34,839 bases of DNA from a virus. Of the stretch, positions 20,864 to 34,839 are shown piece after piece. The notes under the pieces were generated by a model, which worked only from the letters and a program-made list of their open reading frames with translations, ran no database searches and was not told the DNA's origin. Position 1 is the first letter of the stretch. The number at the start of each line of letters is the position of its first letter. A program made the translations under genes and the position numbers. The stretch spans positions 1 through 34,839 of the IMG/VR virus record IMGVR_UViG_3300030329_004051; one strand, written 5' to 3'.

Positions 20864-21876
20864 TAAAATACCTCTTCAATTTTAAGCGATATATCATAAG
20901 TATTAACAGAAGATCTCTTTGCTTGCAAGCTACCTTGTGTAAATCGAGCTAGCGCAAATCCTTCGCTAGTATTATTTGTTTTATCTGGTTGGAATACAAA
21001 TGGTAATTTACCTTGCAAAGTGGGTATCCAAACTTCTGAGAAAAAATTTCCACCACCAAGCAGATTGTTTAAGAAATCACCTTCTAATAATTCTGTATCT
21101 GGTATATCACCTTGTGATTCTAGGTATGTAGAAAGCGAATGATTAGCACCATATAAATCGCTGTTATTAATATATGAAAATTTTAAATTCCAAGATCTAC
21201 GCCCGCTTCTTTTAAAAATAGGATTTATTGATTCTGTGTTAGGCTCTATCAGCTCCCAAGCACCCATAGGAGGGAATAGATTAAGACTATCGTAGATATA
21301 AAGACCGTTGCCCCAGTCTGGAGCAGAATCATACATCGTATTGCTACCACTAGCACCAGTATATGATGTAAACTCTTTTGTTCCTCCGTAAGTAATATTA
21401 AAATCTAATGATAGCAAGGGAGATACTGGCATATTGAAATATCTACCAACAAGCATAGAAGATATGACACTACCTATATTGCTAGGACTAGAATATATTT
21501 TTATTTTATTAGGATTAATATCATTAGAATTTAATGTGATAAAAGAAAATCCATCATTAACAACTTTAATTACATTCACATGATTTTCAGCATTGACAAT
21601 TATATCATTTGTGAACTCTGCATTGGTTTCATTATTTCCATCGCTAGCATCTAAAAATAAATAAGCTTGGTCGCTAATCGAATCACGATGGCTGCCAAGC
21701 CTATGACCGAGAATCCCCCATATGTTGATATGTTTAAACGGAAATCCGCTTGGTATGTCGAACTCTAACGGGTTGCCGCCACTTGGGTTCAATGTATATT
21801 TTGTTGTAAGCCCTAAAGCCCCAAACCATTGCATCCAATCTACTATAAATCTCGGAGTAGCAACATTACTATACAT
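20863..21876 (-). CDS. Tail-tip protein, paralogue A
   Basis: 337 residues beginning MYSNVATPRFIVDWMQWFGA. It aligns in outline with the downstream gene (RFIVDWxQ, GAWELI, RSGRRSWNLKF, FVFQPDKTNNTSEGFA, YDISLKIEEVF). The middle is more divergent. Stop and next start overlap as TAATG, indicating coupled translation, which suits two proteins assembling together. Probably virion structural. No catalytic motifs. Confidence 0.6.
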   Translation of the reverse strand: MYSNVATPRFIVDWMQWFGALGLTTKYTLNPSGGNPLEFDIPSGFPFKHINIWGILGHRLGSHRDSISDQAYLFLDASDGNNETNAEFTNDIIVNAENHVNVIKVVNDGFSFITLNSNDINPNKIKIYSSPSNIGSVISSMLVGRYFNMPVSPLLSLDFNITYGGTKEFTSYTGASGSNTMYDSAPDWGNGLYIYDSLNLFPPMGAWELIEPNTESINPIFKRSGRRSWNLKFSYINNSDLYGANHSLSTYLESQGDIPDTELLEGDFLNNLLGGGNFFSEVWIPTLQGKLPFVFQPDKTNNTSEGFALARFTQGSLQAKRSSVNTYDISLKIEEVF

Positions 21877-22522
21877 CTGTCATTCTTTCTTTCTTGAGTT
21901 TATTTTTTTGTATTCTAATTATATCATTTTGCTTAAAGCGCATCTTTTTAGCTTGTTTACGAATATACTTTTCTGGAATCTCAGAAGATTTAACATATAG
22001 CATCTTGGACTTTTTACTATGTATTGCACCCGTCATCGGTTTATTACTTTCAATATGAATATGAAAATATCCACTATAAGGAGATCCATCTTCCAAAAAG
22101 AGCTTAACTTGTTCTTGTGTAGTATTTAAGTTTTCAATGACTTTTTTTTCAATAATTCTTTTTCTACCAAAAAGAGTGGAATTAATATTTTCAGATAAAG
22201 TTGTAAGTTCCTCTGCGTTTGTATCTAAAAATTCCGCAAAATCAACAACCTTAATAATTTTACAAGATAACCTTTCTCCATTCTCTCCTGCAACTATAAT
22301 AGAATTAATTTTAAGGTCACCATGATACATAAATAAATCTTTTAAATATCCAGATTTTCCTCCTGCTGGTATAATTAGTATTGCCTGATTAAGGTTAAAA
22401 GAAAAGAAATTATCACCTGCTGTACTTTGTATTGCAACATTTCCAGAATACCTAATTTCAACACCTCTTATTTGAGAACCCTCTATTGTACATTCACCAT
22501 TCCCATAATATAATTTTACCAT
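21869..22522 (-). CDS. Tail protein, unknown family
   Basis: 217 residues: a beta-rich N-terminal half (LYYGNGECTIEGSQIRGVEI) and a Lys-rich helical C-terminus. The pattern YSGNVAIQS ... FNLNQAILIIP suggests a small jelly-roll or OB-like core. Located between the giant tail-tip protein and the paralogue pair, and coupled to both. Probably tail-tip structural or an assembly factor. Confidence 0.55.
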   Translation of the reverse strand: MVKLYYGNGECTIEGSQIRGVEIRYSGNVAIQSTAGDNFFSFNLNQAILIIPAGGKSGYLKDLFMYHGDLKINSIIVAGENGERLSCKIIKVVDFAEFLDTNAEELTTLSENINSTLFGRKRIIEKKVIENLNTTQEQVKLFLEDGSPYSGYFHIHIESNKPMTGAIHSKKSKMLYVKSSEIPEKYIRKQAKKMRFKQNDIIRIQKNKLKKERMTDV

Positions 22523-22720
22523 TTATTCTCCTAAATTATCGCAGTCTTGGTTTAATATGCAATTTGCTAATGCCACAATATCTAATACATTATAAAAGCC
22601 ATCACCATTAACATCTATACATTTGTTAAACTCTAAATTTGAACAATTTTGATTTAAAACACAATTTGCCATAGTAACAATATCTAACACATCCCAAGTA
22701 GAGTCACCATTTACATCACC
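22523..22720 (-). other. Dockerin-like domain (two F-hand repeats)
   Basis: The last 65 residues of the giant tail protein. Repeat 1 DVNGDSTWDVLD has acidic/Asn ligands at positions 1, 3, 5, 9 and 12; repeat 2 DVNGDGFYNVLD keeps the same spacing with Asn at position 9. Each is followed by a helix with ANC and LNQ(N/D)C. Dockerins bind Ca2+ and pair with cohesins. Confidence 0.8.
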
Positions 22721-25700
22721 AAGACCTATGCTACCTGTTTCTATGCAATCCATAGCGGCTTGATTTTGCCAATCAATAAAAAAATTACCTGATAAAGCGT
22801 GCATAAAATTATTATCAGTAAGCTCTGGAAATGATTTATATATCTTTATATTGAACATATAAACACCTCCATCTTCTGGGTAATCATTATCCGTATCATC
22901 TACAGTATGACTATATTGAATATTAAAATACGTCGGCTCTTCCGATTCGTAAATATCGCCATTTTTCAAAGTTTCTGTTTCCTCTCCTCTGTGAACTCTT
23001 AAATTCCCTTCTGTACCATATTCCGCTATTGGTTCAAATCCATTTGATTGTTTTTGATAAACTTTAATTATCACATAAGGAATGGAATCATAATCTCCAA
23101 TATCAATTAAACCTAAATTAAATGCAGTTTGAATTTGGTTTTCATCGTCTTCAGTAGAAGTATCATCAGCTAAATCTTTCAATATATTTGGTGCATCAGC
23201 CACAGATATATCATTTATAGTTGTAATCACCTCTTCTGTTGAACGAAGTGTTAAACCAATTCTGTCTATGCGTGCATAGCTCTCTATAAGACATTGCTCA
23301 TAATTAGAATATAAAATAATAGGAAAGTTTAAATATTGCAAAGCTTGATAATTTTCATCTTCCCAGTATTCTATTGCTTGATCTCTAACATCCGACTCAC
23401 ACATTGCATCGCCATTATTTGCGCAAAAAAATTGTATTTCATAAAGTATCTGTTCTCCTTTGGTTGCAAATGTTTTGCCATAACTATTCGTATCAGGTGG
23501 CGCACCATCCCAGTCTGTGCCATCCCATATACCCACACCTATCTCTAAATCTGTCGGAGAATAATTTTCATTCTCTGCAAGGTCAAAGTTTTTTTCTGGC
23601 ATTAAGTCTTTCCAGTAATTTTCAACATCTAATCCATCCATTGTATGTACTGGGCATATCGCCATTTCTATATCCCATTCATCCCAATTTTCACTTCCAT
23701 CCTCTACATCAACTAAAGGATCTCTATTTATAGGCATTAAGCAAAGTGTATTATTTTCTCCAGATGGGTTACAATGTGCGTTAGGATTATAATTTACCGC
23801 ACCACTATCCATACATCCAAATTCAAGAGAAGCATTTTCAGCAGCCTGAGAGGTGCAATAAGGCTCATTTGTATCAGGATTATGGGTGTTTCCACAGGTA
23901 TCAGTAAACAAAGGGTTTGGAATTGGAGCGTCATTTTCATCAAGCTCCATACATCCGCATTCATCTACTAAATTACTATAGCAATCTGTAGCTTCATCCT
24001 CCTCAGGACAATCACAAAGACCATCACCATCTAAATCTTCAAACTCTGGCAAGCAAGCCCCATTACAGTCTTTGCAAACTGTTTCTGGATAATAGCAACT
24101 ATAGTCTTCTATAGTAGCTTCAGAATTATAATTACAAGAATTTTCATCCATACAACCATGTACATCTATATTTTCATAATCTTGAAGAACGTGTTGTTGC
24201 TGGCATTTGATATTTATATGGTCTATCTTTTTATCTGTGCTTAAAATCATAAAATAGGGTGTCGTAACCTGTTGATTTAAATTATCATTTGTTGCATAAT
24301 TTATCCCATAAGGCTTAGAATGGCTCAATAATGAGTCAAATCTTACAATATCTCCTACCTCTATATTTAAATACTTTCCAACAGGAAGCTTTAGATTCAC
24401 TATGAGTTTCTGATTTCTACTATATTCAAATAACCATTCTGCATAGTTTCTAGCTGTATTAAAATCAGATATATATTTACCTCTATCGTCATCGATTACA
24501 AGTGTTGTGTCGGTTACCTTTCCCGCCACGCTATCAGCTTCATAATTTTCTGAATAAGAAAAACCATAATAACCATAAGCTTTAGCAATATCAACAGATG
24601 CAATATTGGTTAAAGCGTATTTAAATTCAGCCTGACTATTAAACTTTTCATAAGGATAGCTCCAATTATAATTAATAATTACTTTAGTATGCACATCTTC
24701 AATTTTTGTTCTATCGTAACTAAAATCAATCACATCATGCTTATATATCATATGATCATGGGTTGTAGGATTCCTCTTAATAGCATTAAAGCGAAATTCA
24801 CCTAAGTAATTAAAACGTGAAATGTAGGGAGATGCAGAAGTTAACTGCTCTATTAATTTCTTAGAATTTATTTTATCTTTTACCGTGAAATCATACCTCC
24901 AATGCCTGTATTCCCAATCATTATTCATATACTCTGAAGTATTAATATCTAATACTTCTTGCCCAAGCTCTTCCTCTGCTATGTTTTTAATTACTTCTGG
25001 TAAAGATGCTGAGTTTGTACGCCCATCAATATTCCCAAAATAATCTAATTGATCTGCCTTATCTACAATAAAATGTTGAGTAATAGATGAATCTTGTATT
25101 CGTACCCTTGCAGCCATCGTCGCTTCAGCCAAAGCTGCTTTTTCAAATTTTAAATAATACATCAAAGCATCACTATTTTGTATAACTACATCATCAAGAT
25201 TATTATTAAAGCTGTTATACTCCGTGAATTTGTCTTCATCTAAATCACTAAGATTGATACTTAATTGAACCTTATGTTTATCACCAGCTTGATTACCTCC
25301 AATTCTTATCGAAACAAGCTTATCTTGATCTGAATTTATAGCTTTTCTAGCATTTGCAAATCCTACGCTTATATTCCCTTTTGTTAGAAGTGCGGCACTA
25401 CTTAAAGTATCAGACCTTGATATTAAATCAGGTACTATTTGAAAGCCTAAAACGCCCTCCTGCCTTGCACCTCTTTCCTCTTGTAATTTTGCCTCTTCAT
25501 CATCTCCATTTTGATCATATTTATATCCTGTCTGATCACTATCTATACCATGTAATTGCGATTCTCCAGTATAAAAATTTGCCGTGCTATTTGATTCCCC
25601 ATAAATAGTACCAAAAACCTCTATTATATCAGTTTCATTTAACTGCATACCTGTATAGATAGAATGTTCATTATTATGTTGCATATCTCCACTTACTACA

Positions 25701-26731
25701 AAATAATCTGTTTCCCCGCCCGCTAAAACCTTTACCATCTTTTTTTCAAGATAAGTTTTAATGTATGCGTACATTAAATTTTTAAGTATAGGGCTTTTAC
25801 TATTTGCGCCCATAGTAACCTTATTTCCTGCTCCAGATATATAAAAAAGAATTTGGTTAAATTCAATTCCTACATAAGGATAGGTAGGAGAAATATCTTC
25901 ATCATCAATAGACTGTTCTTCTACTTCAGAAGATTCCACAGCTTGATTTAATTGATCTAATATACTCTCATCTGTAGCAACCCTCTCTGGAATAAATGCA
26001 AGTTTATTGCCAACTTTTACCAAAATAGGATATAGAGCATCACCAAAACCCTCAAGAGCAAGGCTGCGAAATTGTGAACCCTGATTATAATCTGCATAAA
26101 AATCTACTTCAGCATTATTTTCATTGAAGTCTGCGCCTTGATTGAACTCAGGCATATTTCTTTTTAAAACTAAAGGACTTTTTAAAACCTCTCCAAAAAC
26201 CATCGGTATGTATCGGTTCTCTTGTTTTTCTATATTTGTGTCAAGAATTTTTTCAGCAGGCAAATTAATATGCAACTTAGATTGACTTCTGTCTTCTGCA
26301 ACTATTTTTACAACTTTATCATCATGCGTATATCTTCTTATAATACCCTGATAAACTAATAAAGCATCAGTATCCTCACCCTTATCAATAGTAGTAGTGC
26401 TTTCACAAGCCCAGTATATTCTGCAATTTGCATTGATAATATTTGAATAATATTGTGAAGATATTTTTTCCGATAATCTTTCTCCGTTATACGGAGTATT
26501 AGAAACATTAAGGCTAACATTAGATATTCTATATTTTCTTTTTTCAAAATCTATGCTTTCTTTTAAAGATGGCATATTTAAAAGCAATGGATCAAATTTT
26601 TTCCCATCAACAGTTACATGGTTTGTGCTGATATACCATATGTTATCAATAACAACAAGAGGTATGATTGATGTATCTCTTCCTTGCGCTTCTAATGTTT
26701 GTTTAAATCTGAGGGGCAGGTTTAACGACAT
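22523..26731 (-). CDS. Giant tail-tip/hub protein with GCMD repeats and C-terminal dockerin
   Basis: 1402 residues. The N-terminal ~850 residues are phage-like: opening MSLNLPLRFKQTLEAQGRDT, mixed alpha/beta, ending in a region around LKLPVGKYLNIEVGDIVRFD like tail-tip or baseplate-hub proteins. From about residue 857 come two Cys-rich GCMD repeats (HGCMDENSCNYNSEATIEDY and FGCMDSGAVNYNPNA) around a DLDGDGLCDC calcium-type loop. An acidic beta-rich domain follows, and residues ~1338-1402 form two dockerin-type-I repeats (DVNGDSTWDVLD and DVNGDGFYNVLD, each followed by ANC(V/I)LNQ). It lies directly downstream of the tape-measure region, where hub and tip genes belong. The C-terminal modules look host-derived. 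Confidence 0.75.
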   Translation of the reverse strand: MSLNLPLRFKQTLEAQGRDTSIIPLVVIDNIWYISTNHVTVDGKKFDPLLLNMPSLKESIDFEKRKYRISNVSLNVSNTPYNGERLSEKISSQYYSNIINANCRIYWACESTTTIDKGEDTDALLVYQGIIRRYTHDDKVVKIVAEDRSQSKLHINLPAEKILDTNIEKQENRYIPMVFGEVLKSPLVLKRNMPEFNQGADFNENNAEVDFYADYNQGSQFRSLALEGFGDALYPILVKVGNKLAFIPERVATDESILDQLNQAVESSEVEEQSIDDEDISPTYPYVGIEFNQILFYISGAGNKVTMGANSKSPILKNLMYAYIKTYLEKKMVKVLAGGETDYFVVSGDMQHNNEHSIYTGMQLNETDIIEVFGTIYGESNSTANFYTGESQLHGIDSDQTGYKYDQNGDDEEAKLQEERGARQEGVLGFQIVPDLISRSDTLSSAALLTKGNISVGFANARKAINSDQDKLVSIRIGGNQAGDKHKVQLSINLSDLDEDKFTEYNSFNNNLDDVVIQNSDALMYYLKFEKAALAEATMAARVRIQDSSITQHFIVDKADQLDYFGNIDGRTNSASLPEVIKNIAEEELGQEVLDINTSEYMNNDWEYRHWRYDFTVKDKINSKKLIEQLTSASPYISRFNYLGEFRFNAIKRNPTTHDHMIYKHDVIDFSYDRTKIEDVHTKVIINYNWSYPYEKFNSQAEFKYALTNIASVDIAKAYGYYGFSYSENYEADSVAGKVTDTTLVIDDDRGKYISDFNTARNYAEWLFEYSRNQKLIVNLKLPVGKYLNIEVGDIVRFDSLLSHSKPYGINYATNDNLNQQVTTPYFMILSTDKKIDHINIKCQQQHVLQDYENIDVHGCMDENSCNYNSEATIEDYSCYYPETVCKDCNGACLPEFEDLDGDGLCDCPEEDEATDCYSNLVDECGCMELDENDAPIPNPLFTDTCGNTHNPDTNEPYCTSQAAENASLEFGCMDSGAVNYNPNAHCNPSGENNTLCLMPINRDPLVDVEDGSENWDEWDIEMAICPVHTMDGLDVENYWKDLMPEKNFDLAENENYSPTDLEIGVGIWDGTDWDGAPPDTNSYGKTFATKGEQILYEIQFFCANNGDAMCESDVRDQAIEYWEDENYQALQYLNFPIILYSNYEQCLIESYARIDRIGLTLRSTEEVITTINDISVADAPNILKDLADDTSTEDDENQIQTAFNLGLIDIGDYDSIPYVIIKVYQKQSNGFEPIAEYGTEGNLRVHRGEETETLKNGDIYESEEPTYFNIQYSHTVDDTDNDYPEDGGVYMFNIKIYKSFPELTDNNFMHALSGNFFIDWQNQAAMDCIETGSIGLGDVNGDSTWDVLDIVTMANCVLNQNCSNLEFNKCIDVNGDGFYNVLDIVALANCILNQDCDNLGE

Positions 26732-27011
26732 TTTGCTCCTTTGTATTTACTCTATCCCATTTCCCAATAGGACACCGTGCTGTACTTATTTTATATTTTA
26801 CTGTCATCCAGCATCCGCATTTGAGGCATCTGTTATCATCTCTTAAAAATTCACAACCTTTACACAAATCCCATCTATAATCCAATATGCTCTGATCTTC
26901 AATTAAAACTCTTTTAAATGAAAGGGGTGCTTTCCTTAAATCAAAAGTTTTACTTGTTTCCGCATAGGTATCAGCTTCATATTTTGCCTTTAAGAATAAC
27001 AATTTCAGCAT
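26703..27011 (-). CDS. Small Cys-rich (zinc-binding) tail-region protein
   Basis: About 102 residues from ATG 27011. The C-terminal half contains CKGCEFLRDDNRCLKCGCWM and then ARCPIGKW: CxxC ... CxxCxC ... C, a zinc or structural Cys cluster. A longer frame runs upstream into the tape-measure gene, but no start there has a ribosome-binding site. The gene lies between the tape measure and tail-tip genes, and overlaps the latter's start by 29 bases. Small Cys-cluster proteins at this place are found in other marine siphoviruses; function unknown. Confidence 0.55.
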   Translation of the reverse strand: MLKLLFLKAKYEADTYAETSKTFDLRKAPLSFKRVLIEDQSILDYRWDLCKGCEFLRDDNRCLKCGCWMTVKYKISTARCPIGKWDRVNTKEQNVVKPAPQI

Positions 27012-27078
27012 TATACTTTTAGTTATACCTAAGCAAAACTCTATAAATAAAACCTTATTGGTAAATATGTAAAAAAAA

Positions 27079-28905
27079 CTATAATCCAAAATCAGATCCT
27101 CTTCTAACTGCTTCACGAATTTGCTCACTAAGTTCACCTTCAACAAAATCCTGCGACATAACATTTCCAGATAGATTAACTGTAACAGCTCCGCCTCCAC
27201 CACCCTGATTCATAGCATTTAAACTTTCTACGCCTATCGCATCTACAGCATCCCTTCTCATAACAAACTCGCCTTGTTCTGCTTCTATTACTGTACCACC
27301 TTGAGAATGTCTTCTACCACCAACCAGCCCACCATCTTCAAATTTTATATGTCTTTGAGCCTGACCAACAAGAGATCCAATTACCGCCCCTGCTGTTGCT
27401 GCAAGAGGAACACCAAACCATCCAAGTTTTTTAACTGCATCTGCCATCAATGACATAACTGCTTCTTGTATTAATGATTGAATAACTTGCTGTCCAGCCT
27501 TTTCTGCTGCCTTCCCTGCATTATCATAAGCAATACCAGTTTGAACAGAACTGCCAACAATAGCCTTTGTTTGCTGTTCTTGTGATATTGCAGATATTTT
27601 AAAAGCATCAGCTAAGCTCATATAGCTACTCGCAGTATCTTCGTTTGAAAACTTTACGCCCTCTTGTACGACTATAAGTTTTGACCATTCCTCTACAAGA
27701 TCAGCTAAGCCTTGTCTTGTAATATCCATCGTTTCAAGCATCTCAGAATCAATATCTTCCCCAAATAAATTTAAAATACCTGTCTTTAAAGTTGCGCTGT
27801 TTATCTCTTGAAGTCTATCTTGGAGTAATTGCAATTCTACTTGAAGTGATTGCATACCCTCAGCCTGCTCTGATGTAGCTCTTTTGCCAAATGCTTCTTC
27901 TATTGACTCACCATAATCTCTATGCACGGTTTGACTTAACTGTCTAATCTCATTTTCAACCTCCTTTATTGCAAAGGTTAACATACTCTCATTACTTATA
28001 GCATTTATCGTCTGCTCATTTAAATGTCCTTGCGCAAATGCTGTTAAATTCAATTTTTCTGTTAATTTATCAATAGCACTTGCGGTATTTTGCGTAGCTG
28101 AAGGTAAATTAAATATAGTTGAAATAAAATTACCCATTGATGTTGTAGCATCAAAAGTTGAGGCACTTAACTTGTCGTAGGAATCTTGAGTTGAAAGCGT
28201 TTCTTCTCCAAGTTGAGAAACCTTAGATCTTGCCGCCTCCATAGTAGCCTGTAAAAACGCTTGTTTTTTCTGCGCATCTGTTAATTGATCTGTGGAAATT
28301 CTAAGCTTTTTAGCATAATCATCATAAGCTTGATCGGCTTTGACGATAATTCCAATATTATCTAGCATAAGACGAGATTGTCGCCCAATACCTGTTATAA
28401 GTGATTCTACTGATGAAGCAGTATCTCTCCCTAATGCTCGCCCTAATCGTTGTGCAACATCAAACATTTCAGCCATCTCATCAGAATTTTTACTCACACC
28501 AAGTATCATGGCATTATTTGCTTGTTGGAAAAGATCAAATTGATTCATAGTTCCATCTGTTGCAATTTTTAATTTCTCCATAGCAACAGAAGATTCCATA
28601 GATCCGCCAGAAAGAGTATTAAACGCCCTTGACATAGATTCTATTTTAGCTGCTTGTTTTGTAAATCCAATTAATTGCTTAATACCCATTGCCATTGCAA
28701 AATTAACAAGAAGGAGCTTAGAGCGAATTGTTGCAAATGAATTTGATAAAAGACGGTTGTTTTTAACTCCAGCCAAAGATGTTTCATTATATTTCTTAGA
28801 CTGGTTTTGCAGGCTTCTTATTTGCTTATCAAGCTGTTTTACTGCTGCAATTAAGCCTTTTTCGCCAACTGCATCAAATTTAATCGTTATTTTTTCTTGT
28901 GCCAT
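27079..28905 (-). CDS. Tail tape measure protein
   Basis: 608 residues. Starts MAQEKITIKFDAVGEKGLIA, then a helical coiled-coil region, a hydrophobic stretch (LLLVNFAMAMGIKQLIGF), a conserved block GRALGRDTASSVESLITGIG and STDQLTDAQKKQAFLQATME typical of tape measures, long Gln/Ser-rich helices, and a Gly/Ala hydrophobic helix near residue 505 (GVPLAATAGAVIGSLVG). The final segment (GGRRHSQGGTVIEAEQGEFV) is a conserved tape-measure C-terminal motif. At the usual ~1.5 angstrom per residue it would predict a tail of roughly 90 nm. It follows the tail chaperone genes. Confidence 0.9.
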   Translation of the reverse strand: MAQEKITIKFDAVGEKGLIAAVKQLDKQIRSLQNQSKKYNETSLAGVKNNRLLSNSFATIRSKLLLVNFAMAMGIKQLIGFTKQAAKIESMSRAFNTLSGGSMESSVAMEKLKIATDGTMNQFDLFQQANNAMILGVSKNSDEMAEMFDVAQRLGRALGRDTASSVESLITGIGRQSRLMLDNIGIIVKADQAYDDYAKKLRISTDQLTDAQKKQAFLQATMEAARSKVSQLGEETLSTQDSYDKLSASTFDATTSMGNFISTIFNLPSATQNTASAIDKLTEKLNLTAFAQGHLNEQTINAISNESMLTFAIKEVENEIRQLSQTVHRDYGESIEEAFGKRATSEQAEGMQSLQVELQLLQDRLQEINSATLKTGILNLFGEDIDSEMLETMDITRQGLADLVEEWSKLIVVQEGVKFSNEDTASSYMSLADAFKISAISQEQQTKAIVGSSVQTGIAYDNAGKAAEKAGQQVIQSLIQEAVMSLMADAVKKLGWFGVPLAATAGAVIGSLVGQAQRHIKFEDGGLVGGRRHSQGGTVIEAEQGEFVMRRDAVDAIGVESLNAMNQGGGGGAVTVNLSGNVMSQDFVEGELSEQIREAVRRGSDFGL

Positions 28906-34043: not shown

Positions 34044-34832
34044 CTACCTAATGTGATATTTTATATTGAAACTAACTGATAAATCTGTTGTTGAATCTGA
34101 TTCCACAAAACCTATAACTACTTTTCCTGCATCTATATTTGCAGAATCTAAAGAAAATGTTCCTGTTTTTACAGTATCGTTTGTTGCAGAAACACTTGCA
34201 TTTGCATGAACTGTTCCATTTGACAAATCCCCATGATTAGAACTTGTGTCTAAGTCATAAGCAAATAAGTGAAAATTTAATGTATCTGAGCCATCTGCTG
34301 TTGCCATATACCTAACTGAATCTAATGCTATATTGTTTTCTAAGTACCAATAAACTGCTATTGCATTTTCTTGTTGCGTTAATCCTGATACATCTAAACT
34401 TGTTGCAGGATCAGTTCCATTACCCCAATCTGCATCGTGTGCAAAGTTTTCTGTACCTGTTGATGGGAACATTGTATTGGCGATTAGTGGATAATGATAA
34501 CCTGCTGAATTAGGACTAAAGTCATATAATCCCATTTCTTTAAATAAAGTAAGCACGTTAGCTTGTGTTGCACCTGCTACAACCAATTTATTTGCAGTAT
34601 CTACTTTAAAAACAGGAGTACTGTCAACTTGATCTACTAAAAAAGTACTAGTTTCATTTGTATTAACAGGCTGTATTGTAAATTGATCATCTGATAGCCT
34701 TAAAGCTGTATTTTTACCTTCACCATCCTGCACCCTAACAGTACTTGTCCCTACACCTGTGTTACTAGATTGATCCAACCCTAGTATATTTTTATAAAAA
34801 TTAGCAAATGCTTTTCCTGTAAATGTTGGCAT
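34044..34832 (-). CDS. Fibre-like protein with shared N-terminal module (copy 2)
   Basis: 262 residues, complete. The first 46 residues are nearly identical to copy 1 at 1-137. A beta-repeat linker (STFLVDQVDSTPVFKVDT) follows, then a C-terminal ~150-residue beta-sandwich, lectin-like in composition (ENAIAVYWYLENNIALDSVR, NFHLFAYDLDTSSNHGDLSN). The modular plan, constant N-terminus plus exchangeable C-terminal domain, suits adsorption or neck fibres. Sugar binding is an inference. AGGAG is not included in the window; only GAATAAA precedes the ATG. Confidence 0.65.
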   Translation of the reverse strand: MPTFTGKAFANFYKNILGLDQSSNTGVGTSTVRVQDGEGKNTALRLSDDQFTIQPVNTNETSTFLVDQVDSTPVFKVDTANKLVVAGATQANVLTLFKEMGLYDFSPNSAGYHYPLIANTMFPSTGTENFAHDADWGNGTDPATSLDVSGLTQQENAIAVYWYLENNIALDSVRYMATADGSDTLNFHLFAYDLDTSSNHGDLSNGTVHANASVSATNDTVKTGTFSLDSANIDAGKVVIGFVESDSTTDLSVSFNIKYHIR

Positions 34833-34839
34833 TTTATTC
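34696..34839. repeat. Terminal near-repeat, copy 2 (pairs with 1-144)
   Basis: See the copy at 1-144: 78 bases exact, then 66 bases with eight mismatches. The window ends inside the exact part, as expected where an assembler breaks at a repeat. Confidence 0.85.

Follow-up and report, generated by a model that had tools for sequence, protein, structure and literature searches.

The viral sequence analysed here is an IMG/VR record of 34,839 bp, taken in its entirety and referred to below as the window. Its genes include those for a terminase, a major capsid protein, a lysozyme, a tape measure protein and an ERF recombinase. The same 144 bp, at 94% identity, occur at both extremities (positions 1-144 and 34696-34839) and correspond to the start of a gene beginning MPTFTGKAFANF.... 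This end repeat indicates that the record, which is classed as linear, is probably a near-complete, circularly mapping genome with some strain variation.

The tail genes present a constant order, in which a major tail protein and a small gene are followed by the tape measure, the predicted hub, a protein of 140-270 aa (designated A3 in the window) and one or two proteins starting with MAYQNVGTPRFYID (Table 1). The first-pass annotation had described the product of the 1402-codon gene as a tail protein, an identity borne out by its relatives, in which the hub gene lies directly behind the tape-measure gene. In the window, the start codon of A3 abuts the stop codon of the hub. The interval between tape measure and hub contains a small ORF (26703-27203, minus strand) with a Cys-rich C-terminus, a weak match to DUF6171 and a match to PHROG 13558 (E=6.6e-12).

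Table 1. Features of the tail-tip region, in window coordinates
Feature	Position	Strand	Basis
Tape measure protein, 608 aa	27079..28905	-	PHROG 3779, E=1.5e-12
Tail hub protein, 1402 aa	22523..26731	-	ORF; synteny and homologues in 15 records, 71 loci
Hub N-terminal conserved region, aa 1-190	26162..26731	-	36-52% identity to relatives
Hub core, aa 555-850, highest conservation in the hub	24182..25069	-	Comparison with relatives
Cys-rich region, aa 859-1000, two GCMD repeats and DLDGDGLCDC	23732..24157	-	Sequence; repeat type in relatives
Dockerin type I domain, aa 1337-1392	22556..22723	-	Pfam PF00404; PDB dockerins by sequence and fold
First F-hand calcium loop DVNGDSTWDVLD, aa 1339-1350	22682..22717	-	Ligands kept, 43 members
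Second F-hand calcium loop DVNGDGFYNVLD, aa 1373-1384	22580..22615	-	Ligands kept, 43 members
A3, gene next to hub, 217 aa, candidate dockerin partner	21869..22522	-	ORF; orthologues behind relatives' hubs
A3 N-terminal domain, aa 1-92, predicted nine-stranded cohesin-like fold	22247..22522	-	AlphaFold; Foldseek PDB
Tail-tip protein, MAYQNVGTPRFYID family, 337 aa	20863..21876	-	Synteny
Second tail-tip protein, MAYQNVGTPRFYID family, 362 aa	19775..20863	-	Synteny

In its place behind the tape measure, its large size and its variable C-terminus, the phage hub resembles hubs of the lambda J type, from which it differs by terminating in a dockerin. A single weak Phage-tail_3 match (E=0.098) was obtained among 15 hub members, and a PDB sequence search returned no convincing match between the phage hub and solved hubs.

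The dockerin domain of the hub

As the first-pass annotation had read them, the hub ORF ends in two F-hand repeats, DVNGDSTWDVLD and DVNGDGFYNVLD, and two GCMD repeats (at aa 859 and 972) flank the stretch DLDGDGLCDC (aa 899). Its assignment of the terminal repeats to a dockerin was upheld by profile search, in which Dockerin_1 (PF00404) scored 31.3 bits (cut-off 22.9; E=2.4e-7). This is the sole Pfam-A match in the entire hub, and a six-frame search placed it at the same site. The hub sequence also matched dockerins in the PDB (6kg9, E=1.7e-4). Structure prediction was in agreement, yielding a helical dockerin half that aligns with 2ccl_B (TM-score by target 0.83, rmsd 1.8) at a pLDDT of only about 60-75.

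Analysis of 71 related hubs identified 108 instances of the F-hand motif in the last 400 aa, versus 7.1 expected from shuffled sequences, and the C-terminal motif is hence beyond chance; the remainder of these hubs contained 14 instances in 56,450 residues. In both loops, the calcium-ligand positions are 80-100% conserved across 43 members, with values of 93-100% for the Asp residues, 85-87% for N3 and 80-84% for N9. A Cys pattern (ANCVL...NC) is also conserved in the dockerin helices of the window hub (aa 1338-1402) and of its closer relatives L144, L146, L156, L160 and L204, and its residues suggest putative disulfides or metal binding.

The phage domain shares with clostridial cellulosomal dockerins (2ccl, 2vn6, 6kgc) the two F-hand loops, the conserved ligands, the length and the C-terminal position. 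The clostridial domains are carried by secreted bacterial enzymes, whereas the phage dockerin is located on a tail hub and has only a candidate partner. With regard to the features of a cellulosome, no cohesin family match was detected in the phages and no dockerin-bearing carbohydrate enzymes were found among the scanned window proteins.

Distribution and exchange of modules among related phages

Related loci were retrieved from IMG/VR by searches with the terminase (80 viral loci) and with the hub core (71 loci), while IMG/VR scans using the whole hub or the dockerin as query returned no loci. The tail protein was matched in 15 of 43 terminase-linked records, and 12 of these 15 hub homologues matched the Dockerin family above cut-off. 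The 3' end is complete in 60 hubs, of which 41 carry the dockerin at their C-terminus and four more have it on the next gene. In almost all the hubs carrying one, the dockerin lies at most seven residues from the stop codon.

A set of 71 rows, comprising the loci, the window and longer records, included 20 hubs without a dockerin of their own. Four of these (L145, L147, L151 and L153) have the dockerin on a separate gene beside A3, nine keep one C-terminal F-hand and five, falling in two clades, present no convincing C-terminal F-hand; the remaining two (L148 and L155) are not scorable because the locus stops right after the hub. The single motif of L200 sits in the hub core and is unlike a dockerin repeat. 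Overall, the dockerin is widely spread on the hub tree and is only here and there lost or moved to the next gene, which indicates that it is probably ancestral. This spread rules out a recent private capture by the window phage, and a chimeric assembly join is ruled out by dozens of independent contigs that share the layout.

Several rearrangements were observed among these genes. L152 and L206 encode hub and A3 as one fused protein in which only one clear F-hand remains, suggesting that hub and A3 act together. In L149 (4305-5627), a GCTD repeat and a full dockerin interrupt the middle of the third cassette protein, which belongs to the MAYQNVGTPRFYID tail-tip family, and in L166 (8368-9936) the orthologue of A3 has an extension consisting of a laminin-G (concanavalin-like) lectin domain (E=1.8e-23). 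Taken together, the fusions, the insertion and the lectin extension show that these three proteins (hub, A3 and the third of the cassette) form a set within which modules are exchanged. The idea that fusion simply replaces the dockerin is weakened by the two fused hubs that keep one F-hand and by the five unfused hubs that have none. The first-pass annotation had also proposed that the phage captured surface modules from its host. As the insertion in L149 illustrates, the dockerin and the GCMD/GCTD repeats do act as mobile modules, but the notion of capture by a single phage does not fit a dockerin present clade-wide.

Repeats of the form GC(T/M)D..A.NYNP.A were identified in 22 six-frame ORFs of the loci, some of them overlapping or redundant, and nearly always fall in the variable hub segment that separates the core from the dockerin. 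The GCMD region of the window hub did not match any Pfam or NCBIfam model. These repeats, of a type that we take to be common in bacterial surface proteins, are probably spacer or display modules. The phage family is uncultured and probably marine, a label that we assume from the repeat type and from general knowledge of such sequences.

The A3 protein and its predicted fold

In all 45 cases with a dockerin, 41 at the hub C-terminus and four on the next gene, A3 is conserved behind the dockerin as a gene of its own. A likeness of A3 to cohesin-like domains of dockerin-rich bacteria was spotted in its sequence ahead of any modelling. The hub C-terminus and A3 were then modelled with AlphaFold as a single chain, in which the hub stop codon was set to Gly for modelling purposes only. 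The resulting model comprised the helical dockerin half and a nine-stranded A3 domain, and cohesins made up its first 12 matches in a Foldseek search of 350,542 PDB chains. Modelled alone from 52 aligned sequences, A3 also presented nine strands, with a pLDDT of about 94 over aa 1-92. Its best Foldseek match was 2xdh, a non-cellulosomal cohesin from Archaeoglobus fulgidus (probability 1.00, TMq 0.48, E=2.9e-3), and cohesins accounted for 10 of the first 12 matches, the other two being cellulose-binding CBM2 domains, whose fold is related. The TM-scores for A3 are modest (at most 0.48 by query length) and the structural E-values moderate; TMq is lowered by disorder in about a quarter of the chain that was modelled.

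Sequence comparisons did not detect this relationship. A search of 16 phage records with the Pfam cohesin model (PF00963) returned nothing at E<=10, hhalign comparison of A3 with bacterial cohesins yielded a probability of 0.1, and a profile search of PDB sequences with A3 returned no cohesin. Given these results and the moderate structural E-values, the A3 domain is here termed cohesin-like rather than a cohesin, and its predicted fold is a likeness to cohesin rather than proof of descent. It shares with PF00963 cohesins the predicted nine-stranded fold, with 2xdh as the nearest structure, but cohesins span about 140 residues and are found in scaffoldins, whereas the A3 domain spans about 92 and forms the base of a phage tail-tip protein, and sequence similarity between them is undetectable.

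The C-terminal part of A3 varies among phages, and it is this part that contains the lectin domain of L166. A motif located at aa 139-175 (LEDGSPYSGYFHIH...MTGAIH) recurs in several relatives. A viral structure library contained nine close relatives of A3, one of which, with 1389 aa, is possibly another fusion.

Candidate roles of the hub dockerin

The observations comprise a conserved dockerin at the C-terminus of the hub, an unchanging gene order and, for A3, a cohesin-like predicted fold. They constitute the basis for the reading that we favour, and that we regard as evenly poised between right and wrong, in which the hub dockerin and the cohesin-like base of A3 would form a calcium-dependent joint within the virion. 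The window protein would be the tail-tip hub of an uncultured tailed phage, with a calcium-binding dockerin at its C-terminus that would plug onto the N-terminal domain of A3. A3 would act as an adaptor or receptor-binding protein and carry its variable parts outward, with a putative role in adsorption. Such a joint, of the cohesin-dockerin type and presumably in need of calcium, would couple the adsorption parts to the hub while permitting the exchange of receptor-binding parts. The retention of A3 next to the five hubs without any F-hand counts against this joint, as do the lack of a cohesin match by sequence, the modest structural scores and the CBM2 domains that rank shortly after the cohesins. 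Once the hub tree was accounted for, dockerin and A3 did not covary significantly in a mirror-tree test (partial r 0.15, p 0.09), and in a strand-face test the group without F-hands ranked lowest of 37, barely under the nearest controls. The broader proposition, that widespread and probably marine phages possess a calcium-dependent tail-tip joint of the cohesin-dockerin type, encoded by neighbouring genes and allowing receptor-binding modules to be exchanged, is advanced tentatively, at slightly less than an even chance.

The explanation ranked second follows the first-pass annotation in having the dockerin face outward and bind a surface protein of the host that is a cohesin or resembles one; the phage would thus adsorb by means of host glue. 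Hubs of the lambda type, such as lambda J, bind their receptors with the C-terminus, dockerins occur commonly among bacteria (in one phylum, 40 of 141 genomes have one), and the GCTD repeats and the dockerin resemble bacterial surface modules. A receptor-binding end is nevertheless expected to diverge fast, whereas this dockerin is strongly conserved, and the adjacent gene encodes a candidate partner whose fold is predicted to be cohesin-like. The one metagenome-assembled genome with a related terminase contig, whose own link to the host is weak, has neither cohesins nor dockerins. Docking to the host is considered unlikely. The contig in question (L142, in the assembly 'bacterium TMED88') encodes a terminase 67% identical to that of the window and was the sole close relative in a GTDB terminase search; it may be a binned phage contig, and the presence of a contig in a bin is weak evidence for a host.

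We also deem it improbable that the dockerin is a generic, calcium-stabilised cap or end piece of the hub without a specific partner, and A3 a functionally unrelated carbohydrate-binding beta-sandwich. The matches of A3 to CBM2 domains, the single F-hands kept in hubs without a full dockerin and the outcome of the covariation and strand-face tests are consistent with such a cap. Yet a cap would not need a full two-loop dockerin at the extreme C-terminus, which is present in most of this diverse clade, and would not shift to a separate gene beside A3, as observed in four loci. In a further reading, the dockerin would dock within the virion, but its partner would be a phage protein other than A3, for example one of the MAYQNVGTPRFYID family. 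This is suggested by the passage of modules between these proteins, as evidenced by the dockerin and GCTD insertion of L149, but appears very unlikely, since these genomes yielded no cohesin family match and a cohesin-like fold was predicted for A3, the one candidate partner that was modelled.

A tblastn search of 50,697 phage records did not identify any isolated phage with such a hub or dockerin, and none of the papers covered by a literature search dealt with dockerins or cohesins in phage tails. Gene 40 of phage VvAW1 was called a dockerin on the basis of BLAST similarity and discussed in connection with integration (PMC3558961), and Gp02 of HSE2 has a modelled likeness to a module in PDB 2wz8, called a carbohydrate-binding module (PMC5967307). 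These proteins share only the word dockerin with the hub, and neither is a conserved tail dockerin. Even without the pairing with A3, phage tail hubs with a conserved dockerin seem not to have been described before, and they represent a case of known modules in a new machine.

Cohesin-dockerin pairs, which occur in cellulosomes and in further secreted proteins of bacteria, are among the tightest known non-covalent protein joints. If the favoured reading is true, a joint of this type in the virion would constitute a new way of attaching receptor-binding proteins and shed light on how these are swapped between phages. Adsorption in an abundant group of uncultured phages would then include a calcium-controlled step that can be tested directly.
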